A stretch of DNA of 47,168 nt, taken from the NCBI GenBank assembly GCA_913058135.1, contig CAJXPR010000015.1:1-47168 (forward strand), given 5' to 3'. Every line of letters begins with the position of its first letter. Position 1 is the stretch's first letter. Under the pieces are notes generated by a model, which did no database searches, was not told where the DNA came from, and saw only the letters and a list, made by a program, of their open reading frames with translations. The stretch comes from an uncultured Gammaproteobacteria bacterium. Its GTDB lineage: Bacteria > Pseudomonadota > Gammaproteobacteria > Pseudomonadales > Pseudohongiellaceae. The translations under genes were made by a program, and so were the position numbers. Positions 17,065-31,209 of the stretch are shown here, piece after piece.

Positions 17065-17144
17065 CGGGGGCGAGTGGCTCGCATCTTGCTTATATCTGTT
17101 CAGTGTATTGATACCTGTAACAACCATAGGCGAGATCGACCACC

Positions 17145-18419
17145 ATGGGAAAAACTGCCAGGGATAGCGGCGTCAGAACAGCAGCCGATTACCTGACCGC
17201 CTCCAGGCAATGTGAAATCCGCAACCTCCAGTCGTTGCTGTCATTGTGCGAACTGGTGGTTGCGTGCAGCAATTTGGTGCACGTGCTGCAACGTGAGCGC
17301 GGGGCATCAAACCTGTATCTGGGGTCCAGCGGCAGTCGTTTTATCCAGGAACTCACGCGAATTCGTGAACAGACTGACGCCGAACTCCAGGTTTTCCGCA
17401 GCTCCCTTGGTGCAGCCGATGCGCATTTGCACCAGCTGGCTGACGGCACTCGCATGTTTAACGGGCTGGCGTTCGCCGTCCATGCCCTGGAAGACCTGGG
17501 TGTATTGCGAGGCAAAGTGACCGCACAGCAGCTGGATACCGGACTGGTCACACAGACTTACAGTGCAGTGATTCAGTCACTGTTGATGATTGTCTTTGAG
17601 ACCGCAGATATTGCAGCTGACCCGGAAATTGCGCGGGCACTGGTGGCCATGTTCAATCTGATGCAAGGCAAGGAGCTGGCCGGGCAGGAGAGGGCCGCAG
17701 GCTCGGCCGGGTTCGCCAGTCAGCGTTTCGACGACGAACGCCGCAGCCTGATGACTCACCTGATAGAGGCACAGGAGCGATGTTTCGAGATTTTTTTGCA
17801 GTTTGCTGATGAGCACTCGGCGGCCCGCTGGAAAACACTGCGACATGCACCAGAGTTACTGGAGGTCGAGCGGCTGCGTCGTCTGGCCCTGGCGACTGAC
17901 AGCGTCCGCGATCCGGATTTGGCGGATCGCTGGTTTGCCTTGATGACAGCACGTATGGATGTCCTGAAGGATGTGGAGAATTCGCTGGAACATTTTCTGT
18001 CCCAGTTGTGTGATGGCCGGCTTACACAGGCGCGCGCCTGTCTGCAGCAGAACCAGCAGGCGCTGGGCAAGCTCGGAACTCCTAGTGGATTCAATTCAGA
18101 GCCATTTGTTCTGGTGCGGGCGCAGCCGCTGCTGAATGACGGAGTCGATACACCGGTGGCCAGCAAGTCGCTGATGGATCTGCTGCAGTATCAGTCGCAG
18201 CGATTACAACAGATAAACAATGAGCTTGCCGAGGCGCGCGCGGCACTGGAGGAGCGAAAACTGATCGAGCGCGCCAAGGTGTTGCTGATGAAACATCGGC
18301 GGATGAGTGAGGAAGAGGCGCACAAACTGCTCAGGAACATGGCCATGAACCAGAGCCGGCGACTGATTGACGTCGCCCGCTCGGTAATTGACATGGCAGC
18401 GGTCTGGCAGGGTCAGTGA
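17145..18419 (+). CDS. nasR: NasR-type nitrate-responsive antiterminator (NIT sensor plus ANTAR RNA-binding domain)
   Basis: The 424-residue protein has an N-terminal NIT (nitrate/nitrite sensing) helical domain at residues about 35-290, including VVACSNLVHVLQRERGASN. A short coiled coil follows, then a C-terminal ANTAR domain (ERAKVLLMKHRRMSEEEAHK, LLRNMAMNQSRRLIDVA). In Klebsiella NasR, nitrate binding to NIT lets the ANTAR domain bind leader RNA and prevent termination. The targets here are evident: both leaders in 21655-22288 have two hairpins with A-x-x-G-x-x loops and a downstream terminator. The gene is convergent with the nitrate transporter operon, with a 7-bp overlap (18413-18419). 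Its ribosome site is weak, consistent with low expression. Confidence 0.94.
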   Translation: MGKTARDSGVRTAADYLTASRQCEIRNLQSLLSLCELVVACSNLVHVLQRERGASNLYLGSSGSRFIQELTRIREQTDAELQVFRSSLGAADAHLHQLADGTRMFNGLAFAVHALEDLGVLRGKVTAQQLDTGLVTQTYSAVIQSLLMIVFETADIAADPEIARALVAMFNLMQGKELAGQERAAGSAGFASQRFDDERRSLMTHLIEAQERCFEIFLQFADEHSAARWKTLRHAPELLEVERLRRLALATDSVRDPDLADRWFALMTARMDVLKDVENSLEHFLSQLCDGRLTQARACLQQNQQALGKLGTPSGFNSEPFVLVRAQPLLNDGVDTPVASKSLMDLLQYQSQRLQQINNELAEARAALEERKLIERAKVLLMKHRRMSEEEAHKLLRNMAMNQSRRLIDVARSVIDMAAVWQGQ

Positions 18420-19201
18420 GTGGTCTGGTGGCCGTCGTACAGGAAGCGCAGCACGGCCTGTCGGTAGCGGTTGTAGTTCACATCATCGGCCAGCGCCAGC
18501 CGGTCACGTGGTCGTGGCAACTGCACGTGCAGGACTTCGCCGACAGTGGCTCTGGGGCCGACCGTCATCATCACAATCTTGTCTGACAGCAGCACGGCCT
18601 CATCCACATCGTGGGTTATCATGATGACAGTGTTGTTCAGTGTCGCGTGAATGCGCATGACTTCTTCCTGGAGGTGCGCGCGCGTCAGCGCATCCAGTGC
18701 CCCGAAGGGCTCATCCATCAGCAATACCTTGGGCTCCATGGCCAGTCCGCGGGCAATGCCAACGCGCTGTTTCATGCCGCCGGAAATCTCATGAGGGCGT
18801 TTATCCCGGGCGTCTGTCATGTGCACAAGCTCCAGGTTGTGGGTAATCCAGTCATGCATTTCCGCGCGGTTTTTTTTACCTTTGAATACCTGCTTTACTG
18901 CCAGTGCCACGTTCTCGTAGACAGTCAGCCACGGCAGCAATGCGTGATTCTGGAAAACCACTGCCCGGTCCGGGCTGGGCGAATCGACCTGGCGCCCCTC
19001 CAGAATGACGCCGCCTTCAGTCGCCTGATAAAGTCCCGCGACGATATTGAGGATGGTAGATTTGCCGCAACCGGAATGACCGATCAGTGAGATGTATTCA
19101 CCTTTGGAGACTTTCAGGTTGACCTGGTCCAGTGCTTTGAACGGAACATTATTGGTATTGAATTCAATGCCAACGTTGCTCAGTTCCAGATAGTTTTGCA
19201 T
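18413..19201 (-). CDS. nrtD: Nitrate/nitrite ABC transporter, ATP-binding protein
   Basis: The 262-residue ATPase has Walker A LIGHSGCGKSTILNIVAGL, the Q-loop in VVFQNHALLPWLTVYENVAL, signature EISGGMKQRVGIARGLAM and Walker B VLLMDEPFGALDALTR. The single-domain form matches NrtD or Klebsiella NasD rather than the fused NrtC. The start ATG at 19201 has AAGGAGAA six bases upstream, and the upstream in-frame start at 19264 was rejected. It is the last gene of the reverse operon, 28 bp after the permease gene, and its stop overlaps the end of nasR. Confidence 0.94.
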   Translation of the reverse strand: MQNYLELSNVGIEFNTNNVPFKALDQVNLKVSKGEYISLIGHSGCGKSTILNIVAGLYQATEGGVILEGRQVDSPSPDRAVVFQNHALLPWLTVYENVALAVKQVFKGKKNRAEMHDWITHNLELVHMTDARDKRPHEISGGMKQRVGIARGLAMEPKVLLMDEPFGALDALTRAHLQEEVMRIHATLNNTVIMITHDVDEAVLLSDKIVMMTVGPRATVGEVLHVQLPRPRDRLALADDVNYNRYRQAVLRFLYDGHQTTH

Positions 19202-19229
19202 GCTTGATTCTCCTTGTCCGCGCTGGGGG

Positions 19230-20231
19230 TCAACGCAGGATGACTGATTTGTCCCAGCTGACATGACGTTGAACCATCAGCATGAGTTTGTCGAGTATAA
19301 AACCAATGAGGCCGATGACCAGAACCGCCACCATGATGCGGCCCATTGAATCTGAACTCCCATTCTGGAATTCGTCCCAGATGAACTTGCCAAGCCCAGG
19401 GCTCTGCGCCAGCATCTCGGCGGCTATCAGTACCATCCAGCCGGTTGCCAATGACAGGCGCATGCCGGTGAAGATCATGGGGATGGCTGACGGCAGCACG
19501 ATCTTGCTGACGTGTTGCAGTGGCGGCAGACGTATCACACGACTGACATTGATCAGATCCTTGTCGACGCTGGCGACACCAACTGTGGTGTTGATGACTG
19601 TAGGCCAAAGACAGCACAGTGCCACCGTGACACCGGAGGTGACAAATGCCTTGCTGAACAGGGCGCTTTCCGACACATACAGGGCGCTGACAACCATGGT
19701 TACCAGTGGCAGCCAGGCCAGCGGCGATACCGGTTTGAATATCTGTACGATAGGATTGACCGCACTGTATACGGCCTGGCTCAGGCCACAGAAGATACCC
19801 AGCGGAATGGCAATCGCCATGGCGATGACAAAGCCGAAGGCGACGGTCATCAGACTGGTGCCGATCTGGTCGATAAAAGTTGGCCGTCCTGTGTAGGGGC
19901 GGAGGGTGACATCTGCGTCCGGATCGTTGGCCAACCGTTCGGCATTGCGCACTTCCTGTCGCACAAAAAAATCCCGCTCGTTCTGCTGTTCGCGCTGGTA
20001 TTCCGCGTACAGGTTACCCGCCTGCTCTATGACCTGTTGTGGTCCGGGGAATTTGCCCAGTGAGGTGTCAATGTTGTTAGCGGCGCCTTGCCAAAACAAC
20101 GTGAACACCACCAATCCCACGAGCGACAATAGCCAGGCGCGCAGCAAAGTGGTCAGCCCGGCGCCGGCACTCAGATCGACACCGAGGTTCCCGGGCAGGG
20201 CACTGCGAAATTTACGTATGAGTGTTGCCAT
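19230..20231 (-). CDS. nrtB: Nitrate ABC transporter permease
   Basis: The 333-residue integral membrane protein has an N-terminal hydrophobic segment (LLSLVGLVVFTLFWQG). A hydrophilic, presumably periplasmic stretch of about 80 residues follows, then a binding-protein-dependent permease domain (FIDQIGTSLMTVAFGFVIAM onward). The EAA-like cytoplasmic loop is in VSRVIRLPPLQHVSKIVLPS. It matches NrtB/NasE and would pass nitrate from the NrtA protein into the cytoplasm. It lies 46 bp downstream of nrtA. The ribosome site is weak, so expression may depend on the upstream gene. Confidence 0.94.
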   Translation of the reverse strand: MATLIRKFRSALPGNLGVDLSAGAGLTTLLRAWLLSLVGLVVFTLFWQGAANNIDTSLGKFPGPQQVIEQAGNLYAEYQREQQNERDFFVRQEVRNAERLANDPDADVTLRPYTGRPTFIDQIGTSLMTVAFGFVIAMAIAIPLGIFCGLSQAVYSAVNPIVQIFKPVSPLAWLPLVTMVVSALYVSESALFSKAFVTSGVTVALCCLWPTVINTTVGVASVDKDLINVSRVIRLPPLQHVSKIVLPSAIPMIFTGMRLSLATGWMVLIAAEMLAQSPGLGKFIWDEFQNGSSDSMGRIMVAVLVIGLIGFILDKLMLMVQRHVSWDKSVILR

Positions 20232-20277: not shown

Positions 20278-21654
20278 TTAGTGTTTCTCGTCTTTCAGGC
20301 CGATGTCGAGCGACTGCAGATAGGCGTTGGGCTGTCGACCGTCATAGGGGATACCGTCCAGGAATTCTGTCTGCACCGGGCGATAACCATCTTCGCTGGC
20401 AAAGTCAGGGAAGTCAGACGCAGTCATCCTGCCCTCTGCAATAAGTTCCTCGGCAGCCAAACGGTAGATGTCCGGACGATAAACGCTGGCCGCAGTGTTG
20501 TGGTACCAGTCGTCAGTTTTGGGTTCGGCTATCTGTCCCCAACGGCGCATCTGGGTCAGGAACCACACCGCGTCCGAGTAGTAAGGGAAGGTGGCATGGT
20601 TTCGGAAGAAAACATTAAAGTCAGGTACCGGTAGCACTTCACCCTTTTCATACTCAAATGTGCCGGTCATTGAGTTGGCAATGACATTGTAGTCGGCACC
20701 AACATAGTCACTTCGGGAAAGTATCCTGGCTGCTTCCTCACGATTGGCATTGTTATTGTCGTCCAGCCATTTGCCGGCCCGCAGTAATGCCTTGACCAGG
20801 CGCACAGACGTATTGGGGTTCTCCTCGATGAAGGCCTGGGTCATGCCCAGCACTTTCTCCGGGTTGTACTGCCAGATTTCATGGTCCGTAATCACCGGCA
20901 CGCCGATATCCCTGTAGATGGCCTGCTGATTCCAGGGTTCACCGACGCTGTAGCCGTCGATTGTGCCCGCTTCCAGGGTGGCGGGCATCTGTGGTGGCGG
21001 CGTCACTGAGATCATGACGTCTGCTTCCAGCATACCTGAGGTGTCGCCCCGGTCCGGTGCGTAATAGCCGGGATGGATGCCACCGGCCGCGAGCCAGTAG
21101 CGCAATTCGTAGTTATGGGTCGAGACCGGGAACACCATGCCCATGTTGAAGGGCTTGCCCTGCGTCCGGTAACTGTCGATCACCGGCTTCAAAGCGTCAG
21201 CGCTGACCGGCCTGACAATGTTTCCGTCCTGTTGCGGAATGTGCGGGCGCATCATCGACCATACTTCATTGGAGACGGTGATGGCGTTGCCATTCAGGTC
21301 GAGGCTCAGGGGTGTCACGATATGTGCCTTGGTGCCATAACCAATGGTGGCCGCCAGGGGCTGACCGGCGAGCATGTGGGCGCCATCAAGTCTGCCGTCT
21401 ATCGCACCATCCAGCAACACACGCCAGTTGGCCTGTGGTTCCAGGGTCACGTACAGTCCTTCGTCCTCAAAGAATCTCTTCTCGTAGGCAATGGCCAGGG
21501 GCGCCATGTCGGTGAGTTTGATGAAACCCAGTGTCAGGTCTTCTTTCTCTGGCCAGCCCACTCCGGCAACGGCGCTCGCTGACAGTGCCAGCAGGTTACC
21601 GGTGAAGAGGACTGTTATGGCGGAACTCCGTATTGTCCTTGATGTGCCTGACAT
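20278..21654 (-). CDS. nrtA: Nitrate ABC transporter substrate-binding protein
   Basis: The 458-residue protein has a signal peptide ending near LSASAVA and the NrtA/CmpA fold: TLGFIKLTDMAPLAIAYEKR, EPQANWRVLLDGAIDGRLDG, AHMLAGQPLAATIG and GYSVGEPWNQQAI. It binds nitrate or nitrite in the periplasm and delivers it to NrtB/NrtD. The ATG at 21654 has AAGGAG seven bases upstream. It is the first gene of the reverse operon. Its mRNA leader contains an ANTAR-type RNA element and an intrinsic terminator, so expression should need nitrate as well as sigma-54 activation. Confidence 0.95.
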   Translation of the reverse strand: MSGTSRTIRSSAITVLFTGNLLALSASAVAGVGWPEKEDLTLGFIKLTDMAPLAIAYEKRFFEDEGLYVTLEPQANWRVLLDGAIDGRLDGAHMLAGQPLAATIGYGTKAHIVTPLSLDLNGNAITVSNEVWSMMRPHIPQQDGNIVRPVSADALKPVIDSYRTQGKPFNMGMVFPVSTHNYELRYWLAAGGIHPGYYAPDRGDTSGMLEADVMISVTPPPQMPATLEAGTIDGYSVGEPWNQQAIYRDIGVPVITDHEIWQYNPEKVLGMTQAFIEENPNTSVRLVKALLRAGKWLDDNNNANREEAARILSRSDYVGADYNVIANSMTGTFEYEKGEVLPVPDFNVFFRNHATFPYYSDAVWFLTQMRRWGQIAEPKTDDWYHNTAASVYRPDIYRLAAEELIAEGRMTASDFPDFASEDGYRPVQTEFLDGIPYDGRQPNAYLQSLDIGLKDEKH

Positions 21655-21694
21655 ACTGATACTCCTTTGCGGTGTTCTTGGTTAGTTCGTAAAG

Positions 21695-21725
21695 TTGCGT
21701 GCAAAAAATTTGCGTGCAAAAAAAA
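21695..21725. repeat. 15-bp tandem repeat just after the nrtA leader terminator
   Basis: TTGCGTGCAAAAAA occurs at 21695-21708 and again at 21710-21723. Read on the reverse strand, this gives two successive U-tracts each followed by GCACGCAA, between the terminator and the nrtA ribosome site. The first U-tract in that direction is the terminator's own. Confidence 0.8.
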
Positions 21726-21772
21726 GCGCCCACTCGCATCAACAGATAAGCCTGCTGACTGCGTGCGGACGC
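21718..21772 (-). terminator. Intrinsic terminator in the nrtA leader (attenuator)
   Basis: On the reverse strand, positions 21772-21752 pair with 21745-21726 to form a long imperfect stem beginning GCGTCCGC and ending GTGGGCGC, with a six-base loop, followed by eight T (21725-21718). It lies about 65 bp upstream of the nrtA start codon and well downstream of the sigma-54 promoter, so it must be read through for nrtA expression. Its 5' arm shares bases with hairpin P2. Confidence 0.85.
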
Positions 21773-21822
21773 CATTGCCCTTAAAAAACGTATCAGGTAC
21801 CCCATCATTGGGAACCGATACG
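21767..21822 (-). ncRNA. ANTAR-type two-hairpin RNA element, nrtA leader
   Basis: On the reverse strand, P1 (21822-21789) pairs outer arms CGTATC/GATACG and inner arms GGT-CCC/GGG-ACC around the six-base loop AATGAT. P2 (21780-21767) pairs GGGC with GTCC around the loop AATGGC. Both loops have A at position 1 and G at position 4, the rule for ANTAR target RNAs. The 3' arm of P2 is also the 5' arm of the terminator, so the two structures exclude each other. Confidence 0.8.
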
Positions 21823-21840
21823 GTCGGTCTACTGAGACGA

Positions 21841-21856
21841 TGCATGAACTGTGCCA
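21841..21856 (-). promoter_or_regulatory. Sigma-54 promoter of the nrtABD operon
   Basis: On the reverse strand the sequence reads TGGCAC-AGTTC-ATGCA, with GG and GC separated by ten bases as in -24/-12 promoters. The start point would be near 21830, placing P1 close to the 5' end of the transcript. It closely matches the promoter on the other side of the region. Confidence 0.8.
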
Positions 21857-22117
21857 GTCAGCTGTCAATGAATCTGGTGGCGCAGGACCCTCCTTATAGG
21901 GCATTGGGAAATTAATGGTTGTCGGCTGATTGGTGTTGGTAAAAATGGTCTGTGCCGGCGCCGGAGACTGCCTTTTTTCAGTGCATGATGCCCGAAAATA
22001 ACGCACAGCATCGAGCTTTTCCCGGTACCAGCGATGGGCCCGGCAGGCCTTTTTTATAACGCTGCAGGTCAGCGATTGCGGTAGTGCGGGTTCTATTTGT
22101 AAGGTTTTGCGGATTGA

Positions 22118-22133
22118 TGGCACAGCTCTTGCT
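22118..22133 (+). promoter_or_regulatory. Sigma-54 promoter of the nirB-nasA operon
   Basis: TGGCAC-AGCTC-TTGCT matches the consensus TGGCAC-N5-TTGCW exactly. Transcription would start near 22144, leaving a leader of about 145 nt that contains the ANTAR element and terminator. Activation by an NtrC-type protein is expected from knowledge of nas operons. Confidence 0.85.
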
Positions 22134-22157
22134 CTGCTCTTGGTACAGGTCATTGGC

Positions 22158-22228
22158 TACGCGGAAAATCAAAGGCGATTATCACCCGTAACGATGACTA
22201 AACGATTTCAGGGCAATGGCGCCCATGA
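22158..22228 (+). ncRNA. ANTAR-type two-hairpin RNA element, nirB leader
   Basis: P1 (22158-22190) pairs TACG/CGTA, GG/CC and AATC/GATT around the six-base loop AAAGGC. P2 (22208-22228) pairs TCA-GGGC with GCCC-A-TGA around the loop AATGGC (22215-22220). Both loops follow the A-x-x-G-x-x rule. Bases 22219-22228 are also part of the terminator stem, so formation of P2, stabilised by NasR, should block termination. Confidence 0.83.
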
Positions 22229-22261
22229 CACGACAAAGGTCGTGTGATGGGCGCTTTTTTT
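22219..22261 (+). terminator. Intrinsic terminator in the nirB leader (attenuator)
   Basis: Positions 22219-22234 pair with 22239-22254 (16 positions, one G-G mismatch) across an AAAG loop, followed by seven T (22255-22261). It sits 27 bp before the nirB start codon and after the sigma-54 promoter. It is therefore an attenuator of the nir/nas operon, not the end of another gene. Confidence 0.93.
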
Positions 22262-22288
22262 ATGCCTGCAGGAAGGAGGAGTGAATGC

Positions 22289-24823
22289 ATGAGCAAACGT
22301 CAGTTACTGGTCATTGGCAATGGCATGGTAGGCCAACGTTTTCTGGAAGAACTGGTCGATCTGGAGCATGATTTTCAGGTCACCGTATTCTGCGAGGAAA
22401 GTCGGCCGGCCTACGACCGTGTGCAACTGAGTGCCTGGTTCAGCGGCGCCACTGCTGAAGACCTGGCACTGGGCAGTGTCGAATTTTTCGAGCAACACGG
22501 CATCCGTTTTCTGTGCGACGAGGCGGTGGTGTCCATCGATCGTGATGCCCGGGTTGCTACCGGCAGCAAAGGTAGTAGTTTCCCGTACGATGTGCTGGTG
22601 CTGGCGACCGGCTCCTATCCGTTTGTCCCGCCAATTGCTGGCAGTGACCGTGACGCCTGCCATGTCTATCGGACCATTGAAGATCTTGAGGCCATTCGCG
22701 CGTCCGCAGCCAGCAGTCGGCGCGGCGTGGTCATTGGTGGCGGCTTGCTGGGCCTGGAAGCTGCCAAAGCCCTGAAAGATCTCGGACTGGATACCCACGT
22801 CGTTGAATTCGCACCACGTCTGATGGCGGTGCAACTGGATGCCACCGGGGGCGAGATGCTGCGCAGCAAGATCTCAGCGCTGGGCGTCACTGTTCATACC
22901 GGCAAGGCCACGCAACGAATTGAAGACGGCAGCAAACACCGCCATCGCCTGGTGTTTGCCGAGGACGAACTGGAGACTGACCTGGTATTGTTCTCGGCGG
23001 GCATTCGACCCCGAGACCAACTGGCACGTGATTGTGGTATTGAGGTCGGGGAGCGTGGTGGTGTGGTTGTGGATGACCAGTGTCGCACCTCGGATCCGGC
23101 CATATTTGCCATTGGCGAAGTGGCCCTGTGGCAGAATCGTACCTACGGACTGGTAGCGCCGGGTTATGACATGGCCCGCAAGCTTGCTGCGCAGCTGTGC
23201 GGCGATACCGGCGCTCTGTTTACCGGTGCCGATATGAGCACCAAGCTGAAATTGCTGGGTGTTGAAGTTGGTTCTATTGGCATGGCGCAGGGCGGGGCGC
23301 CCGACTACCGTGTCTGCGCCATTGAGGATGCCAGCAGCGGCGTCTATAAAAAGCTGGTGTTAAGTGAGGACGGTAAGCGTCTGCTTGGCGCTGTGCTGGT
23401 CGGTGATACCAGCGACTACGACACACTGTTGCAATACACCCTCAACGCGCTGGATTTGCCGGAATCCCCCATCAGTCTGATTGCGCCTGCCTCGGGTGAC
23501 AAACCCATGCTGGGTGTTGATGCACTGCCGGCCACGGCGCAGATATGTTCCTGCAACAATGTCAGCAAAGGCGATATCTGCGGTGCTATCAGCGCCGGGT
23601 GCACCACTATTGGCGCCCTGAAAAAAGACACGCGCGCTTCGTCTACTTGCGGTGGCTGCGCAACCCTGGTCAAGCAGGTGCTGGACGCAGAACTCAAGAC
23701 CCAGGGTATAGAGATCAATAACGACCTGTGTGAACACTTTGCCTACACCCGGCAGGGGCTCTATCACCTGGTGCGGGTGAACAGTATCAGGTCCTTTGCC
23801 GAGCTGCTGACACTATATGGTCGCGGCAAGGGCTGCGAAATCTGCAAGCCGGCGGTGGCATCGATTCTGGCCTCCTGTTGGAACGACTATGTGCTGGATC
23901 CCCGCCATGTGGGATTGCAGGACACCAATGACAACTTTCTGGCCAATCTGCAGAAGGACGGCAGCTACTCCGTGGTGCCACGTGTGCCCGGCGGCGAGAT
24001 TACTCCGGACAAACTGCTGGTGCTGGCGCAGGTGGCGCAGAAATACGACCTCTACACCAAGATCACCGGCGGACAGCGGATTGACCTGTTTGGGGCACGG
24101 GTTGATCAGTTGCCGGCGATCTGGCGCGACCTGGTGGATGCCGGCTTTGAATCGGGGCACGCCTATGGCAAATCCCTGCGCACGGTAAAATCCTGTGTGG
24201 GTTCCAGTTGGTGTCGTTATGGCGTGCAGGATTCGGTGAGCATGGCCATCTACATTGAAGAGCGCTACCGGGGCCTGCGTTCGCCGCACAAACTGAAAAT
24301 GGCGGTCTCCGGCTGCACGCGCGAGTGCGCAGAAGCGCAAAGCAAGGATGTCGGCATTATTGCCACTGAGCAGGGCTGGAATCTTTATGTATGTGGCAAT
24401 GGTGGCATGCGTCCACGCCACGCGGAACTGTTTGCCAGCGATCTGGATGACCAGACCCTGATTCGTTACATCGACCGCTTCCTGATGTTCTACATTCAGA
24501 CTGCCGATCGCCTGCAGCGAACGTCGGTATGGCGCGACAACCTGGAAGGGGGTCTGGCCTATCTGCAGGATGTTGTTATCAACGACTCGCTGGGCATCGC
24601 TGACGAGCTCGAAGTGCAGATGCAGTCGGTTATCGACACCTATGTATGTGAGTGGAAGCGCACCATCGAAGATCCGGAAGCGCTGAAACGTTTCCGGCCA
24701 TTCCTGAATGACGACCAGCCTGATGAGCAGATCATCTATGTCCGTGAGCGTGGGCAAAAGCGTCCGGCGCGCGCCGATGAAAAGCTTGAAAAATCAGCTG
24801 ACGTGCTGTTGGAGACCGTGTGA
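22289..24823 (+). CDS. nirB: Assimilatory nitrite reductase (NAD(P)H), large subunit
   Basis: NirB reduces nitrite to ammonium in the cytoplasm using NAD(P)H, FAD, Fe-S centres and siroheme. The 844-residue protein shows an FAD/NAD domain (LLVIGNGMVGQRFLEEL, LVLATGS, GVVIGGGLLGLEAAKAL) and a BFD-like [2Fe-2S] domain (CSCNNVSKGDICGAI, TCGGCATLV). A sulphite/nitrite reductase half-domain follows, with siroheme/[4Fe-4S] ligands in SCVGSSWCRYG and SGCTRECAEAQ. The ATG at 22289 follows GGAAGGAGGAG; the longer frame from 22244 would begin inside the terminator and is rejected. First gene of an operon whose overlaps imply translational coupling. Confidence 0.97.
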   Translation: MSKRQLLVIGNGMVGQRFLEELVDLEHDFQVTVFCEESRPAYDRVQLSAWFSGATAEDLALGSVEFFEQHGIRFLCDEAVVSIDRDARVATGSKGSSFPYDVLVLATGSYPFVPPIAGSDRDACHVYRTIEDLEAIRASAASSRRGVVIGGGLLGLEAAKALKDLGLDTHVVEFAPRLMAVQLDATGGEMLRSKISALGVTVHTGKATQRIEDGSKHRHRLVFAEDELETDLVLFSAGIRPRDQLARDCGIEVGERGGVVVDDQCRTSDPAIFAIGEVALWQNRTYGLVAPGYDMARKLAAQLCGDTGALFTGADMSTKLKLLGVEVGSIGMAQGGAPDYRVCAIEDASSGVYKKLVLSEDGKRLLGAVLVGDTSDYDTLLQYTLNALDLPESPISLIAPASGDKPMLGVDALPATAQICSCNNVSKGDICGAISAGCTTIGALKKDTRASSTCGGCATLVKQVLDAELKTQGIEINNDLCEHFAYTRQGLYHLVRVNSIRSFAELLTLYGRGKGCEICKPAVASILASCWNDYVLDPRHVGLQDTNDNFLANLQKDGSYSVVPRVPGGEITPDKLLVLAQVAQKYDLYTKITGGQRIDLFGARVDQLPAIWRDLVDAGFESGHAYGKSLRTVKSCVGSSWCRYGVQDSVSMAIYIEERYRGLRSPHKLKMAVSGCTRECAEAQSKDVGIIATEQGWNLYVCGNGGMRPRHAELFASDLDDQTLIRYIDRFLMFYIQTADRLQRTSVWRDNLEGGLAYLQDVVINDSLGIADELEVQMQSVIDTYVCEWKRTIEDPEALKRFRPFLNDDQPDEQIIYVRERGQKRPARADEKLEKSADVLLETV

Positions 24824-25164
24824 TGAAAAATACCAGTCAGTGGGTAGAGATTGGTGCTGTGGATGATCTGATACCCGGCACTGGCGCGGCAGTGAGAATC
24901 CAGGGCAAGCAGATCGCCGTGTTCAGAACCGACGACGGTCTGTTTGCGCTGGATAACCGCGACCCGTTCAGTGACGCCAATGTACTAAGCCGGGGGCTGA
25001 CCGGCGATATAGCCGGTCGACTGGTGGTGGCATCACCGGTATACAAACAGCACTTCTGTCTGAGAACAGGCGAGTGCTTGGAAGACGATCAACACAAGGT
25101 ACAGAGTTATCCGGTCGATATCCGTGATGGCCGGGTATTTGTGTCTGCGTCAGAGGAGGTGTGA
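24823..25164 (+). CDS. nirD: Nitrite reductase small subunit
   Basis: The 113-residue protein has the Rieske-like fold of NirD (WVEIGAVDDLIPGTGAAVRI, GLFALDNRDPFSDANVLSRG). As usual for NirD it lacks the Cys-His pairs that would hold a Rieske cluster. It associates with NirB. Its ATG shares one base with the TGA of nirB; a GTG at 24820 is an alternative start. Confidence 0.96.
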   Translation: MKNTSQWVEIGAVDDLIPGTGAAVRIQGKQIAVFRTDDGLFALDNRDPFSDANVLSRGLTGDIAGRLVVASPVYKQHFCLRTGECLEDDQHKVQSYPVDIRDGRVFVSASEEV

Positions 25165-26456
25165 TGCCCAGCCCCAAACCCAGATTGCTGGTGGTCGGTT
25201 TTGGTATGGCCGCCGGGCGTCTGCTACAGGAAATTGCACAGCTAGCGCCAGGTCAATTTGATATTACCGTGATCGGAGAAGAGTCGCAGTCGGCCTACAA
25301 TCGTATTTTGTTGTCGCCGCTATTGGCCGGGGAATCGGATACCTCCCTGCTGCCTCTGCAGTCAGCGGACTGGTATCGGTCCCAGGGGATCAAGGTACTG
25401 ACCGGTGATCCGGTACTTGAACTGGACGTCGAGGCACGACTGGCACGCACCGCATCGGGTAGCAGTCATAGCTGGGACATGCTGGTGCTGGCCACCGGAT
25501 CGCGTGCCGCGCGGTTGCCGCTGCCCGGCCGGGATCTGGACGGTATTATCAGCCTGCGTACATTGAATGATGCCAACGACGTCATGGCTCGGATGGATGA
25601 TGCCAGGCAACCAGCGCGCAACGCTGTGGTGGTAGGTGGCGGCGTGTTGGGGCTAGAGGCTGCCTGTGCACTGCAAAGCCGCGGTGTCAGCACTTCGGTT
25701 GTTCACAATGCTGGCTGGCCCATGAATCGCCAGCTGGACAGTGAAGCAGGTGAGTTTCTCGCGTCAACACTGGCTGCCCGTGGCATCCGTTTTATCAGTG
25801 ATGCGCAATGCGAGCGTTTTGTGGCGAACCAGGACGGACAGCGAGTGGCGGCGTTGCAAATGGGCGACGGTGAGTTGTTGCCCTGCGATCTGGTTATCAT
25901 GGCAGTCGGTATTGCGCCTGAAGTTTCCCTGGCTCGCGAGTCAGGTATGGCCGTTTCCCGGGCCATTGCAGTTGATGGCTGGCTGCGTAGCAGCACGCCG
26001 GGTGTCTTTGCCCTTGGCGAATGCTGCGAGATTGAGGGTGAGCAATTCGGCCTGGTGGCGCCCATCTATCAACAGGCACAGGTGCTGGCAGCCGTGTTGC
26101 AGCGCCATGCGGAATCGGGCCTCAATGCCAGCCTGACAGATATTGCGCCTTACACACGTCAGGCTCTGCCAACTCGCCTGAAAGTCAGTGGTGTTCATGT
26201 GTTTTCCGCCGGCGATCTTGATGACTTGTCATCCCTCGCATCCGGAGCCTCGGCATCAAAACGCACTCTGGCGTGGCGCGACAAGGAGCGCGGTGAATAC
26301 CGGCGGTTGTGGTGGCAAGGCGAATGTCTGCAGGCAGCGGTGATGTTTGGCGATGTCGATGACAGCGGTATCTATGAAAGCCTGATCGAACGCCGCGTGC
26401 CGGTTACTGCATCTGCGCAGGCCTTGTTGAATCCGGCTGGGCTGGCATTGTCATGA
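25164..26456 (+). CDS. FAD-dependent oxidoreductase, electron-transfer subunit of assimilatory nitrate reductase (NasC/NasB type)
   Basis: The 430-residue protein has FAD-binding RLLVVGFGMAAGRLLQE, NAD-binding NAVVVGGGVLGLEAACAL and the second FAD motif STPGVFALGECCEI. It resembles the N-terminal half of NirB in this operon (LVLATGSRAARLPLPG versus LVLATGSYPFVPPIAG), so the two are paralogues. By position between nirD and nasA it should pass electrons from NAD(P)H to NasA. Unlike Klebsiella NasC it has no [2Fe-2S] domain of its own; that domain is on NasA here. ATG at 25164 follows AGAGGAGG and overlaps the nirD stop by one base. Confidence 0.9.
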   Translation: MPSPKPRLLVVGFGMAAGRLLQEIAQLAPGQFDITVIGEESQSAYNRILLSPLLAGESDTSLLPLQSADWYRSQGIKVLTGDPVLELDVEARLARTASGSSHSWDMLVLATGSRAARLPLPGRDLDGIISLRTLNDANDVMARMDDARQPARNAVVVGGGVLGLEAACALQSRGVSTSVVHNAGWPMNRQLDSEAGEFLASTLAARGIRFISDAQCERFVANQDGQRVAALQMGDGELLPCDLVIMAVGIAPEVSLARESGMAVSRAIAVDGWLRSSTPGVFALGECCEIEGEQFGLVAPIYQQAQVLAAVLQRHAESGLNASLTDIAPYTRQALPTRLKVSGVHVFSAGDLDDLSSLASGASASKRTLAWRDKERGEYRRLWWQGECLQAAVMFGDVDDSGIYESLIERRVPVTASAQALLNPAGLALS

Positions 26457-29128
26457 ATACCGTCGATAGCGTGTGCCCCTACTGTGGAGTTGGCTGTGGT
26501 GTTTCAGTCACTGTTTCTGACAATTCACCAGAGATAACAGTCAAGGGCGATGACGCGCACCCGGCCAATGCGGGTCGGCTTTGCGTCAAGGGCAGTGCGC
26601 TGGGCGACACGCTGGGGCTGTCAACGCGTCTGCTGCAACCCCGGGTAGATGGTCTACAGGCAAGCTGGGACCATGCGCTGAGTGCGGTCGCGCATCGCCT
26701 GCAGGACACCATCAAAAAATATGGCCCGGATTCGATCGCCTTTTATGTGTCCGGCCAGTTGTTGACTGAAGACTATTATGTTGCCAACAAACTGATCAAA
26801 GGCTTTATCGGAACCGCCAATATCGATACCAACAGTCGCCTGTGCATGTCGACAGCGGTGGCAGCCCACAAGCGGGTATTGGGCAGTGACACGGTACCCG
26901 GGTGTTATGAAGACCTGGAACTGGCTGACCTGCTGATTATCACCGGCTCCAATATGGCCTGGACCCATCCGGTCGTATACCAGCGCATTGTTGCCGCCAA
27001 ACAGGCCCGGCCGCAGATGAAGATCGTGGTGATTGATCCGCGGCAGACAGCAACCAGTGAGCTGGCCGACCTGCATCTGCAGATTGCACCGGGATCGGAT
27101 ATCTTTCTGTTTGATGGTCTGCTGGCGCACCTACTTGCTTCGCCTGTGGTGGATGACGCTTTTATCAGGGATCACACGGAGAATTTTGCCGAGCTGGTTA
27201 TGCAGAGCCGGCAGCGGGACAACGCCGTCGACAGCGTTGCCGACCAGTGCGGTCTTGATACCGGACTGCTGCGCACCTTTTACCAGTGGTTCGTGCGCAC
27301 CGCCAAAACCGTCACGGTGTTCTCCCAGGGCATCAATCAGTCGTCGCAGGGTGTCAATCAGGCCAGTCTGATTCTTTATTGTCATCTGGTTACCGGCCGG
27401 ATTGGCAAACCCGGTGCGTGTCCCTTTTCAATTACCGGTCAACCCAATGCCATGGGCGGGCGTGAAGTCGGCGGTCTGGCCAATCAGCTGGCGGCCCATA
27501 TGGATCTGGACGACCCGACGCATCACGCACTGGTGAGTGAATTCTGGCAGACGCAGGACCTGGCAGCAAAACCTGGACTAAAAGCCGTTGACATGTTTCG
27601 TGCCGTCGCTGAGGGCAGGATTCGCTTTATCTGGATCATGGCCACCAACCCGGTGGTGTCGATGCCCGAGGCCAATCTGGTGCGCGATGCCCTTAAGAAC
27701 TGCGACCATGTTGTGGTGTCGGACTGCGTGACAGACACCGATACCACCCGTCTGGCACATGTACTGTTGCCTGCCGCAGCCTGGGGCGAGAAGTCCGGCA
27801 CAGTCACCAACTCCGAGCGTTACATATCGCGCCAGCGTGGCTTTCTGCCGTTGCCCGGTGCAGCGCAACCGGACTGGTGGATTATCAGTCAGGTTGCCCG
27901 ACGGCTGGGGTTTGCACATGCTTTCGAGTATGAGAGCGCTGCCGATATATTTCGGGAACACGCGGCGCTTTCTGCGTTTCGCAATGGTGGGTCGCGCGAT
28001 TTTGATATCGGCGCGCTGGCGCAGCTGGACAACGCCCAGTATGAGGCGCTGGCGCCGACGCAGTGGCCTCTCGGGCAACAGCGAATGTTCAGTGATGGAC
28101 GATTCTTCACGCCCTCCGGCCGCGCGCGTTTCATGCCAGTTCAGCCTACGCCGCTGAAGCAGGCCACTGATGCCGACTACCCCCTGTGGCTGAATACCGG
28201 CCGCATTCGTGACCAGTGGCATACCATGACGCGCACCGGTCTGAGCAGCAGCTTGCAAAAGCACATCACTGAACCCTTTATCGACATGCATCCGGCGGAT
28301 ATGCAATTGCGTGGCCTGCAAAACACCGATCCGGTACTGGTCAGCAGTCGTCACGGCCAGTGTGTGGTACGTGTGCGTGAACAACGTGGGCAGGCAGCGG
28401 GCAGTGTGTTCATGTCGATTCACTGGAACGATATTTCCGCATCCGCAGCACGCGTCGACACACTGGTGTCCGCTATCTGTGACCCGATCTCCGGGCAGCC
28501 GGCGTTCAAGCAGACGCCGGTGTCAGTGGTAAAACTGCCGGTGTCATGGCATGCCGTTCTGGTCAGCTCGCGGCAAGTGCCTGTGCCGGAGGCGGGCTAT
28601 TGGAGTGCACGGTATCTCGATGGCCTGTATTTTACCGTGCTGGCCGGTGACCGGCCGATGGGCACCGTCGTATTGAAGACCTTGTGGTCGGACGTTGCCT
28701 CACGCTGGACAGAGCTGGAGGACAGCCACGAGGAGTCCCTGCGCCTGATTGGCCGGGATGCCAATGCCGTACAGATCTGGTTTGCCATGCAGACCGGCTC
28801 ATCCCCTGATGTTGACGAGGACTGGCTGATCGACAACTGGCATCAGCCAGGCCTGTCGTCGCGCGAGTTGATGCTGGGCCGGCCAACGGGCAGTCAGGCC
28901 CGTGTCAAAGGCACGTTGATCTGCACCTGCCATCAGGTTTACGACACAACCCTGCGCACCGCCATTGAAGAAGGCTGCAATGACACGTCAGCGCTGGGCC
29001 GGGCAACCCGGGCCGGCACCAATTGTGGGTCCTGTATTCCGGAGCTTAACAAACTGCTGAACTCAGTAGCGCTGAAAAAATCCGACACCAACCGCCATCC
29101 GAATGCTGAAGAGGAATCGTTATGCTGA
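26453..29128 (+). CDS. nasA: Assimilatory nitrate reductase catalytic subunit with C-terminal BFD-like [2Fe-2S] domain
   Basis: NasA reduces nitrate to nitrite in the cytoplasm with Mo-bis-MGD. The 891-residue protein begins with a [4Fe-4S] motif (VCPYCGVGCGVSV, GRLCVKG). It continues through the molybdopterin oxidoreductase domain (LLIITGSNMAWTHPVVYQR, GQPNAMGGREVGGLANQL, IWIMATNPVVSMPE) and the dinucleotide-binding domain (LWLNTGRIRDQWHTMTRTG). A bacterioferritin-associated ferredoxin-like domain ends it (ICTCHQVYDTTLRTAIEEG, GTNCGSCIPELNKLL). No export signal. It overlaps the previous gene by 4 bp (ATGA) and cobA by 7 bp. Cofactor supply is encoded in the same operon by mobA. Confidence 0.97.
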   Translation: MNTVDSVCPYCGVGCGVSVTVSDNSPEITVKGDDAHPANAGRLCVKGSALGDTLGLSTRLLQPRVDGLQASWDHALSAVAHRLQDTIKKYGPDSIAFYVSGQLLTEDYYVANKLIKGFIGTANIDTNSRLCMSTAVAAHKRVLGSDTVPGCYEDLELADLLIITGSNMAWTHPVVYQRIVAAKQARPQMKIVVIDPRQTATSELADLHLQIAPGSDIFLFDGLLAHLLASPVVDDAFIRDHTENFAELVMQSRQRDNAVDSVADQCGLDTGLLRTFYQWFVRTAKTVTVFSQGINQSSQGVNQASLILYCHLVTGRIGKPGACPFSITGQPNAMGGREVGGLANQLAAHMDLDDPTHHALVSEFWQTQDLAAKPGLKAVDMFRAVAEGRIRFIWIMATNPVVSMPEANLVRDALKNCDHVVVSDCVTDTDTTRLAHVLLPAAAWGEKSGTVTNSERYISRQRGFLPLPGAAQPDWWIISQVARRLGFAHAFEYESAADIFREHAALSAFRNGGSRDFDIGALAQLDNAQYEALAPTQWPLGQQRMFSDGRFFTPSGRARFMPVQPTPLKQATDADYPLWLNTGRIRDQWHTMTRTGLSSSLQKHITEPFIDMHPADMQLRGLQNTDPVLVSSRHGQCVVRVREQRGQAAGSVFMSIHWNDISASAARVDTLVSAICDPISGQPAFKQTPVSVVKLPVSWHAVLVSSRQVPVPEAGYWSARYLDGLYFTVLAGDRPMGTVVLKTLWSDVASRWTELEDSHEESLRLIGRDANAVQIWFAMQTGSSPDVDEDWLIDNWHQPGLSSRELMLGRPTGSQARVKGTLICTCHQVYDTTLRTAIEEGCNDTSALGRATRAGTNCGSCIPELNKLLNSVALKKSDTNRHPNAEEESLC

Positions 29129-29922
29129 CCCTGATCAAGGCAAACCCGAACAAACTGCCGGCAGGCGAGGTCTGGCTGGTGGGTGCCGGCCCGGGTGATC
29201 CGGAGCTGATAAGTGTCAAGGGTCTGCGCCTGATCAGGCAGGCTGATGTACTGGTCTACGACCGTCTGGTTGCCTGTGAGCTGTTGACCGAGGCGCGCGC
29301 GGATGCGCAGATGATAGATGTGGGTAAACGGCCGGGGCACCATCCGGTGCCGCAGCACCAGATTGAAGCGGTGCTGATATTGCACGCCCGTGCGGGCAAG
29401 TCTGTGGTCCGGCTCAAGGGCGGCGACCCATTTGTATTTGGCCGCGGTGGCGAAGAAATGCTCAGTCTGAAAGCGGCAGGTATCCCTGTTCATGTCGTGC
29501 CGGGCATTACCGCTGCTTCGGCCTGTGCGGCGACCGCGGGGTTCCCCCTGACACAACGCAATATTGCCACCAGTGTGTGCCTGACCACAGCGCATTATGC
29601 CGACGAAAAGGACCACACACATTGGCAATCCCTGGCAGCGGACAGATCGCGCACGCTGGTGTTCTACATGGGCCTGGCGAGCCTGGCAAAAATTCGCAGT
29701 GGCCTGATGCAGCATGGTCTGCCGGCTTCAACACCCGCCGCACTCATCGAAAACGGCAGCCGCGATGAGCAACGAACCTGCTACTGCACGGTGTCTGACA
29801 TCGATTGGGTCGCCCGCAATCACAAACTGCAAAGTCCGTGTTTGCTGGTGATCGGTGATGTCGTGGCGCTGGCAGCACAAAACAACAACACAGCACAAAC
29901 AGCGAATGCCCTGAGTGCTTAG
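29122..29922 (+). CDS. cobA: Uroporphyrinogen-III C-methyltransferase (siroheme synthesis)
   Basis: The 266-residue protein is a SUMT: VWLVGAGPGDPELISVKGLR, ADVLVYDRLV, the signature VVRLKGGDPFVFGRGGEE and VVPGITAASACAATAGFPLT. It makes precorrin-2 from uroporphyrinogen III with two SAM molecules, the first step to the siroheme of NirB. It lacks the dehydrogenase/chelatase domain of CysG, so those steps must be encoded elsewhere. Its start lies inside the end of nasA. Confidence 0.95.
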   Translation: MLTLIKANPNKLPAGEVWLVGAGPGDPELISVKGLRLIRQADVLVYDRLVACELLTEARADAQMIDVGKRPGHHPVPQHQIEAVLILHARAGKSVVRLKGGDPFVFGRGGEEMLSLKAAGIPVHVVPGITAASACAATAGFPLTQRNIATSVCLTTAHYADEKDHTHWQSLAADRSRTLVFYMGLASLAKIRSGLMQHGLPASTPAALIENGSRDEQRTCYCTVSDIDWVARNHKLQSPCLLVIGDVVALAAQNNNTAQTANALSA

Positions 29923-29982: not shown

Positions 29983-31209
29983 ATGAGACCAGTATACGCA
30001 AATGTTTTACCTTCTCTTGTGGTTGTCACGGCGACGTTATTCACCACCCAGGGTCTTGCGCAGTCGGACAGTGATCTGGCCGCTGCCTTGACGGCAGGCA
30101 CCACCAATCTGACTTTCTGGCTACGCAGTGAGCAGGTTGATGACGCCGGGTTTGCCAGCGATGCGGTAGCCAATACATTGCGAACACGGCTAAGCTGGCG
30201 CAGTGGTGAATGGCACAATCTGGACCTGCTACTGGAAATGGATCACGTCAGTTATCTGGGCGATGACCGGTTTAACAACACACGCAATCTGAAAACCCGT
30301 TACCCGGTGATACCTGATCCTGATGGTGTGGATCTGAATCAGGCTGCCGTGCACTACCGTGCCGACAAAGGCAGTGTAACGGTGGGGCGCCAGCGCCTGC
30401 TGCGTGACAATCAGCGTTTTATTGGCAGCGTAGGCTGGCGGCAGAACGAGCAGACCTTTGATGCCGTTACTCTCAGTCTGGCGCCCGTTGAGAATCTGCA
30501 ACTGGACTATGTCTGGGTAGATAATACCCGGCGAATCTTTGGGCCCGAGGCGGGCAATCCGCCAGCAGCGCTGGACAGCGATCATCATCTGCTTAACGCG
30601 CGCTGGCAATTGCGACCCGTGTTGGCACTGAGTGCCTACCGTTATGCACTGGCATTCAGTGAGGCGCCGGGACTGTCGTCAATAACACAGGGCGTCGCGG
30701 TGACCGGTGCGGTAGACGCCACAGAGGAGCTAAAAATCGACTACCGCGCTGAATACGCCCGACAGTTCGACCATCGTAATAACCCCAATGATTATAGCGC
30801 CGACTACCTCCTGGTTTCTGCCGGTGTCAGCGTTGGCGGTCTGCGTGCTGCCCTGTCCCACGAATCCCTTGGCGCTGACCAGCGCGCTGGCGTTGCCATG
30901 CAGACACCGCTGGCGACCCTGCATGCGTTTCAGGGATGGGCTGACAAGTTTCTGACGACGCCCGGGTTTGGTATACGTGACACGACCTTAGCCCTGAGTG
31001 GCAATGTGGCAGGTGCCAGTCTGATGCTGGCCTGGCACGATTACCGGGCTGACACAGCCGGTCTGGATCTGGGACAGGAGCTGAATCTGCAAGTCTCCAG
31101 AACTTTCGCGTCGCGTTACACGCTGGCAGCAAAGTTTGCCGAGTATCGGGCCGAAGGTTTCAGTACAGATACACAAAAGCTATGGCTGACCGCAGAGGCC
31201 AGATTCTGA
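29983..31209 (+). CDS. Outer-membrane porin (alginate-export-like barrel), candidate nitrate/nitrite channel
   Basis: The 408-residue protein has a signal peptide (MRPVYANVLPSLVVVTATLF, cleavage after GLAQ). The rest is made of alternating beta strands ending in an aromatic residue (KLWLTAEARF), as expected for an outer-membrane barrel. The segments VTVGRQRLLRDNQRFIGSVG and WRQNEQTFDAV recall the alginate-export/OprD-like porin group. It lies 60 bp after cobA and is directly followed by mobA, with no terminator, inside the nitrate operon. A role in letting nitrate or nitrite cross the outer membrane is inferred from context only. Alginate export itself is unlikely because no alginate genes are near. 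Confidence 0.8.
   Translation: MRPVYANVLPSLVVVTATLFTTQGLAQSDSDLAAALTAGTTNLTFWLRSEQVDDAGFASDAVANTLRTRLSWRSGEWHNLDLLLEMDHVSYLGDDRFNNTRNLKTRYPVIPDPDGVDLNQAAVHYRADKGSVTVGRQRLLRDNQRFIGSVGWRQNEQTFDAVTLSLAPVENLQLDYVWVDNTRRIFGPEAGNPPAALDSDHHLLNARWQLRPVLALSAYRYALAFSEAPGLSSITQGVAVTGAVDATEELKIDYRAEYARQFDHRNNPNDYSADYLLVSAGVSVGGLRAALSHESLGADQRAGVAMQTPLATLHAFQGWADKFLTTPGFGIRDTTLALSGNVAGASLMLAWHDYRADTAGLDLGQELNLQVSRTFASRYTLAAKFAEYRAEGFSTDTQKLWLTAEARF

Follow-up and report, generated by a model that had tools for sequence, protein, structure and literature searches.

Mirrored ANTAR-type leaders between divergent nitrate uptake and nitrate reduction genes in an uncultured gammaproteobacterium

ANTAR-target RNAs are defined in the literature by two hairpins whose six-base loops carry A at position 1 and G at position 4, the second hairpin overlapping an intrinsic terminator (PMC3369931). 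The nasF leader of Klebsiella oxytoca combines such hairpins and such an overlap with a NIT-ANTAR regulator, NasR, at nitrate assimilation genes, and is described as one leader before one operon (PMC7496416, PMC3369931). In Pseudomonas, the nirBD leader NalA is under sigma-54 and NtrC and is antiterminated by the ANTAR protein NasT, itself held by NasS; the review in question describes a single leader (PMC12830290). The eut cluster of Enterococcus faecalis shows that one ANTAR protein (EutV) can serve several leaders, there in response to an ethanolamine signal that arrives through a kinase (PMC3369931, PMC7496416). Regulons with several leaders are known from eut and from Desulfotomaculum acetoxidans, which has at least 13 RNA hits (PMC3369931). 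As far as the accessible portions of the literature cited here go, ANTAR attenuation of nitrate genes has so far been described leader by leader.

The locus reported here shares with nasF the NIT-ANTAR regulator, the paired A1/G4 hexaloop hairpins, the overlap of second hairpin and terminator and the nitrate assimilation genes, but it carries two leaders, on opposite strands before divergent operons, where nasF has one. With NalA it shares a nirB leader that appears to be started by sigma-54 and NtrC and antiterminated by an ANTAR protein, whereas its regulator is of the NIT-ANTAR type and its leaders are two. As in eut, one ANTAR protein would serve more than one leader; the portions of the eut papers available to us mention no mirrored divergent pair. 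A search of open-access PMC, covering titles and abstract openings, returned no description of a mirrored ANTAR-leader pair or of an NtrC site shared between its members. The mechanism is already known; what is new and unusual is the arrangement, a mirrored pair that is conserved and appears to share a single nitrogen-control site.

The locus lies in a stretch of 47,168 nucleotides (CAJXPR010000015.1, positions 1 to 47,168) from an uncultured Pseudohongiellaceae bacterium, called the window below. The start codons of nrtA (21654, minus strand) and nirB (22289, plus strand) are separated by a gap of 634 bp (21655-22288). Either strand of this gap presents the same order of elements, a -24/-12 box, hairpin P1, hairpin P2 and an intrinsic terminator, and in both leaders the 3' arm of P2 is common to the terminator. 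The features, with the evidence for each, are as follows (R1 is a covariance model introduced further on).

17145-18419, plus strand: nasR, predicted nitrate-responsive antiterminator with NIT and ANTAR domains
18413-19264, minus strand: nrtC, ABC ATPase (PF00005)
19230-20231, minus strand: nrtB, ABC permease (PF00528)
20278-21654, minus strand: nrtA, nitrate ABC transporter substrate-binding protein (PF13379)
21726-21772, minus strand, plus eight T at 21718-21725: intrinsic terminator of the nrtA leader, with 21767-21772 common to P2 (folding, descriptor, R1)
21767-21780, minus strand: P2 hairpin of the nrtA leader, GGGC-AATGGC-GTCC (descriptor, R1, covariation)
21789-21822, minus strand: P1 hairpin of the nrtA leader, apical part TCCC-AATGAT-GGGG at 21800-21813 (folding, descriptor, covariation)
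21842-21856, minus strand: -24/-12 (sigma-54) promoter of the presumed nrtABC operon, TGGCACAGTTCATGC, one mismatch to the TTGC form; counterpart in 10 of 10 nirB-bearing genomes of the genus under a slightly looser pattern
21970-22004, no strand assigned: candidate shared enhancer, a twin NtrC-like site made up of 21970-21984 and 21990-22004, seen as a conserved block
22118-22132, plus strand: -24/-12 (sigma-54) promoter of the presumed nirB operon, TGGCACAGCTCTTGC, no mismatch; counterpart in 10 of 10 nirB-bearing genomes of the genus
22148-22199, plus strand: P1 hairpin of the nirB leader, apical part AATC-AAAGGC-GATT at 22167-22180 (folding, descriptor)
22211-22224, plus strand: P2 hairpin of the nirB leader, GGGC-AATGGC-GCCC (descriptor, R1)
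22219-22254, plus strand, plus seven T at 22255-22261: intrinsic terminator of the nirB leader, with 22219-22224 common to P2 (folding, descriptor, R1)
22289-24823, plus strand: nirB, NAD(P)H nitrite reductase large subunit (domain match)
25161-26456, plus strand: FAD/NAD-dependent oxidoreductase resembling the NirB N-terminus (domain match), probable electron donor to the nitrate reductase
26453-29128, plus strand: nasA-type nitrate reductase with molybdopterin oxidoreductase domains, presumably assimilatory from its context
29122-29922, plus strand: TP_methylase-family methyltransferase (PF00590), putatively of the siroheme type acting on uroporphyrinogen

The descriptor was composed after the motif had been noticed, on the model of the published ANTAR-target definition (PMC3369931): two six-base loops of the form A-x-x-G-x-x, each closed by a stem of 4 bp or more, with P2 overlapping a T-tailed hairpin. 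Across both strands of the whole window it matched exactly the two leaders, and dinucleotide-shuffled versions of the gap region, 400 per strand, gave no match. The leaders fold with z-scores of -5.3 and -3.5. Both hairpins of both leaders carry A1/G4 hexaloops, and P2 and terminator are mutually exclusive, as the bases they have in common and the fold energies indicate. A C:G pair closes the stem beneath the hexaloops, here and in the aligned leaders of the genus, as in the NasR SELEX consensus (PMC7496416). A generic promoter and terminator scan of the window flagged neither leader terminator.

An earlier note on this DNA had described a promoter, two A-x-x-G-x-x hairpins and a P2-overlapping terminator on each strand of the 634-bp region, an arrangement that sequence reading and the descriptor confirm. 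It had also read these elements as two ANTAR-type leaders, one per divergent operon, which the descriptor, R1 and conservation in the genus all support. The structure of the leaders and its conservation are well supported. Judged from their sequences, the two are very probably NasR-responsive ANTAR attenuators that fire divergently under sigma-54 and NtrC.

The candidate regulator is encoded nearby. The NIT-ANTAR protein that the note placed at 17145 has both domains and matches the K. oxytoca NasR structure (PDB 4akk) across both of them with E=1.3e-50; no other ANTAR protein was found in the genome (188 contigs, 98.5% complete). A sigma-54-like box, TGGCTCGCATCTTGC, lies at 17075-17089 on the plus strand, about 70 bp upstream of nasR. 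A box of this loose pattern precedes nasR by 71-200 bp in 8 of the 10 genus genomes, which raises the possibility that NasR is itself under nitrogen control. The nasR and nrtC genes are convergent, and their ends, stop codons included, share 7 bp (18413-18419). The nrtABC set and the nirB set presumably form one operon each.

The mirrored arrangement follows nirB through the genus. True NirB is present in 10 of 15 genus genomes, and all 10 have a P2-terminator unit behind a -24/-12 box on both strands; NasR was found in these 10 as well, and not in the 5 genomes that lack nirB. A1/G4 hexaloops are kept on both sides across the 10 genomes. When P1 stems of 3 bp are allowed, the descriptor finds 15 of the 20 leaders in the genus: every one before nrtA (10 of 10) and half of those before nirB (5 of 10). 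It misses the nirB leaders of G014, G002, G005 and G006, whose terminator is bulged and whose P1 hexaloop hairpin was recognised by inspection and folding, and that of G012, where P1 is imperfect. Forcing P2 to form costs each of the 20 leaders 2.5-15.1 kcal/mol relative to its minimum-energy fold. In 16 of them this minimum-energy fold pairs the complete P2 3' arm, four bases, with downstream sequence that belongs to the terminator; the exceptions are the nirB leaders of G014, G002, G005 and G006. Together, these fold energies and pairings are what an attenuator that is off by default predicts.

The transporter behind the nrtA-side leader has changed within the genus. Six of the 10 nirB-bearing genomes have the window's type, and the other four (G014, G002, G005, G006; L117-L119, L121) have a paralogue 36-39% identical to it. 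The leader before the paralogous transporter has the same P2 and a similar terminator.

The earlier note had named a lack of covariation in homologues as grounds for giving up its reading, and the reading withstood this check: P1 and terminator stems show compensatory changes, located in the outer stem of nrtA P1 and in the nirB terminator stem. For P1 and P2 of the nrtA leader the covariation score is 0.333 against 0.220 in shuffles, and for the nirB terminator 0.253 against 0.091; none of 500 shuffles, which ignore relatedness, scored as high in either case. The nirB P2 varies too little to be informative by itself within the genus (72 of 500 shuffles reached its score). Some rows of the MAFFT alignment of nrtA P1 (A2) seem to be shifted by one base, and the per-pair counts for its outer stem may therefore be too low.

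We built the covariance model R1 from leaders outside the genus, keeping 31 of 99 nrtA-upstream loci for a P2-like hairpin before a T-run; no such leader lay upstream at the other 68 loci examined. A 4-bp P2 stem was the selection rule, so the P2 pairing of these 31 outgroup leaders is no independent evidence; at least one compensatory change is seen at 9 of 12 terminator-stem pairs. Searched against the window, R1 gave only two matches at E up to 10, at 21720-21780 on the minus strand (37.4 bits) and 22211-22260 on the plus strand (36.8 bits). The whole genome, with 150 of 1382 first-look candidates scored, yielded only one further match at E up to 10. This candidate third leader (G000:C53:4634-4675; L145 3635-3676, minus strand; 30.4 bits) was rejected: it is the terminator after glnA and has no readable P2 hairpin. 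Since this false positive reaches 30.4 bits (E near 0.002), single weak R1 matches prove little.

Across 390 genomes of the order, R1 matched at E up to 0.01 in 105 and an ANTAR domain was found in 182. Leader and ANTAR domain occurred together in 100 genomes, leader only in 5, ANTAR domain only in 82 and neither in 203 (Fisher P about 2e-35, uncorrected for relatedness). In four of the five leader-only genomes the R1 match has E of at least 0.001.

Close divergent leader pairs also occur outside the genus, in at least three genomes (G244, G351, G374) from at least two other families among the matches listed; this count is a lower bound, weak matches being lost to the filters of the survey. 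G244 and G351, of one genus, have mirrored leaders between a nasA-type gene and an FAD oxidoreductase gene with nirB. In G374 (L156), from another family, mirrored leaders lie between the two nitrate ABC transporter types, which stand back to back; nirB has a third leader there, and nasR is nearby. In each of these close pairs (L154, L155, L156) the descriptor finds the full P1-P2-terminator set on only one of the two leaders, and the sigma-54 pattern is found on neither side of the L154 and L155 pairs and on one side of the L156 pair. With the P1 descriptor one-sided and the sigma-54 pattern mostly missing, they are weaker cases than those of the genus. In two genomes with wider divergent pairs (G107, G245), the nasR gene lies between the two leaders; at L157 (5201-7078) and L159 (5080-6958), nasR sits between divergent ANTAR leaders that point towards nasA on one side and towards nitrate ABC transporter and nirB genes on the other. 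The two R1 matches each in G315 and G164 are both strands of one place, the terminator being palindromic.

Both promoters in the window have GG and GC dinucleotides spaced as in -24/-12 elements. By itself this match is not significant, with 9 found in the window against 7.24 expected at up to one mismatch, and it gains weight only from its conserved position in the genus. Between the promoters there is a single conserved block, the twin site at 21970-22004, with 25 of 38 columns conserved in at least 8 of the 10 genomes; the best window not overlapping it has 6 of 38. The site consists of two degenerate dyads, GC-N9-GTGC and GCNC-N9-GC, 20 bp apart, and its pattern occurs in 10 of 10 nirB-bearing genus genomes. 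NtrC enhancer dyads are of the GCAC-N7-GTGC type and lie upstream of the promoter. Upstream of glnA in the same genome are two full dyads of related type, GCACTTTATCGGTGC and GCACCATATTGGTGC, which we take to be NtrC sites and which the twin site resembles. Genes resembling glnA, ntrB and ntrC, named from reading of their open reading frames, lie together in this genome.

It is likely that one NtrC enhancer, with 21970-22004 as the candidate, serves both promoters. In the window, 131 bp separate the centre of the twin site from the first base of either -24 box. This exact symmetry looks like coincidence: across the 10 genus genomes the distance to the nrtA -24 box is 130.5-132.5 bp, and that to the nirB -24 box varies over 82.5-152.5 bp. 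NtrC-like dyads can also be found between the promoters of the three outside-genus pairs when up to two mismatches are allowed in the eight half-site letters, a tolerance at which such matches are common.

We propose that the 634-bp gap acts as a bidirectional control element with two inputs. Under nitrogen limitation, NtrC would activate both sigma-54 promoters, probably from the central twin site. Each transcript would start with a leader of about 110-120 nt whose default fold is the intrinsic terminator, so that both operons would end early. When nitrate or nitrite is present, NasR would bind P1 and P2 of each nascent leader and hold P2, thereby preventing the terminator, and nrtABC, for uptake, would then be expressed together with nirB, nasA and the methyltransferase gene, for reduction. 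The locus would thus be one two-way switch, in which a single twin NtrC site fires both sigma-54 promoters and one NasR frees both attenuators: a shared AND gate at initiation and elongation that has outlived the transporter change in 4 of 10 genomes and has comparable pairs in at least two other families. We put the probability of this full reading at about 0.55.

Only one of the two leaders might respond to NasR, the other being a plain or differently regulated attenuator, in which case uptake and reduction would not be controlled alike. The leaders do differ in the P1 stem, in linker length (30 and 19 nt) and in the terminator, and the nirB side is the more variable, with 5 of 10 leaders found by the descriptor against 10 of 10 on the nrtA side and one imperfect P1. 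Yet A1/G4 hexaloops with their closing C:G pair are retained on either side in the 10 genomes, and a single ANTAR protein was found in the genome; we regard a one-sided response as unlikely. Less probable still, to the point of being far-fetched, is that the hairpins are ordinary terminators or the source of stable trans-acting small RNAs, with NasR control incidental. A related leader before a nirB-like gene is catalogued as small RNA P11 (RF00625), and in Pseudomonas aeruginosa PA14 P11 is reportedly an sRNA that plate-grown cells express at 25 C (PMC12080996); set against this are the conservation of the P1 and P2 hexaloops, the co-occurrence with NasR and the position immediately before nitrate genes, and the roles of small RNA and attenuator are not mutually exclusive.

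The same paper, a study of learning in Caenorhabditis elegans, has P11 regulate a PA14 nitrogen assimilation operon with NirB, NirD and NasC (PMC12080996). As labels for the window leaders, P11 and the narK RNA (RF03032) were both rejected: P11 scores 15.8 bits on the plus strand and 14.6 on the minus strand against a gathering score of 70, narK scores 24.4 bits on the plus strand against 43.2 with none listed for the minus strand, and an Rfam scan at gathering scores gave no match in the window. A scan of 18 stretches taken from other genomes in the order gave eight matches at gathering score, seven to narK and one to P11. Four of the seven narK matches (L166 3419-3532, minus strand; L170 820-932; L172 923-1034; L173 2641-2752, minus strand) overlap R1 matches of 28.7-31.1 bits, and the other three (L168 2787-2899; L169 2782-2894; L171 2738-2849) overlap weak ones of 19.7-20.0 bits. 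The P11 match (L178 4974-5117, minus strand), full length at 146.5 bits, coincides with an R1 match of 32.1 bits directly before a nirB-like gene. Because R1 scores in this range do not set these loci apart from the glnA false positive, the case rests as much on the sequences, and those at L166, L170 and L172 can be read as a -24/-12-like box, P1, P2 and terminator. The Rfam listing for the narK RNA and P11 carries no ANTAR label; both are probably ANTAR leaders of the same class.

How the pair arose is a separate matter. The earlier note had pointed to a 12-mer common to both P2 regions and to TGGGCGC and a T-run common to the terminators, all of which are present (the latter as TGGGCGC-T7), and had suggested an inverted duplication of one leader. 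Such a duplication in this lineage concerns origin and would be compatible with the two-way switch. The gap does contain inverted arms, one set of 19 nt with 89% identity and one of 14 nt with 100%. But the shared 12-mer, AGGGCAATGGCG, is confined to the nirB leaders of 3 of 10 genus genomes (G000, G013, G007), the other seven having an AAAGGC P2 loop. From P2 to terminator, nirB and nrtA leaders are no more alike within a genome (0.728) than between genomes (0.724), close to the 0.708 measured against outgroup leaders, and from promoter to P2 their identity is 0.655 against 0.634 when shuffled after the promoter. The GGGCGC-T6 end, moreover, recurs in leaders of other genera. An old duplication of the leaders is unsupported by these comparisons, and a second leader derived from the first in this lineage is improbable.

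Two leaders, presumably served by one protein, and a single apparent enhancer fit within 634 bp, which makes the mirrored pair a natural test bed that carries its own controls. Work on it would reveal how a regulator splits between two nascent RNAs and how uptake and reduction stay in step. The proposed link of the narK RNA and P11 to the ANTAR mechanism would give the members of both families testable functions. Directly downstream of the nitrate genes, at 29983-31209 on the plus strand, lies a gene for an Alginate_exp-family protein (PF13372, E=4.6e-09), which could be a nitrate-related outer-membrane porin.
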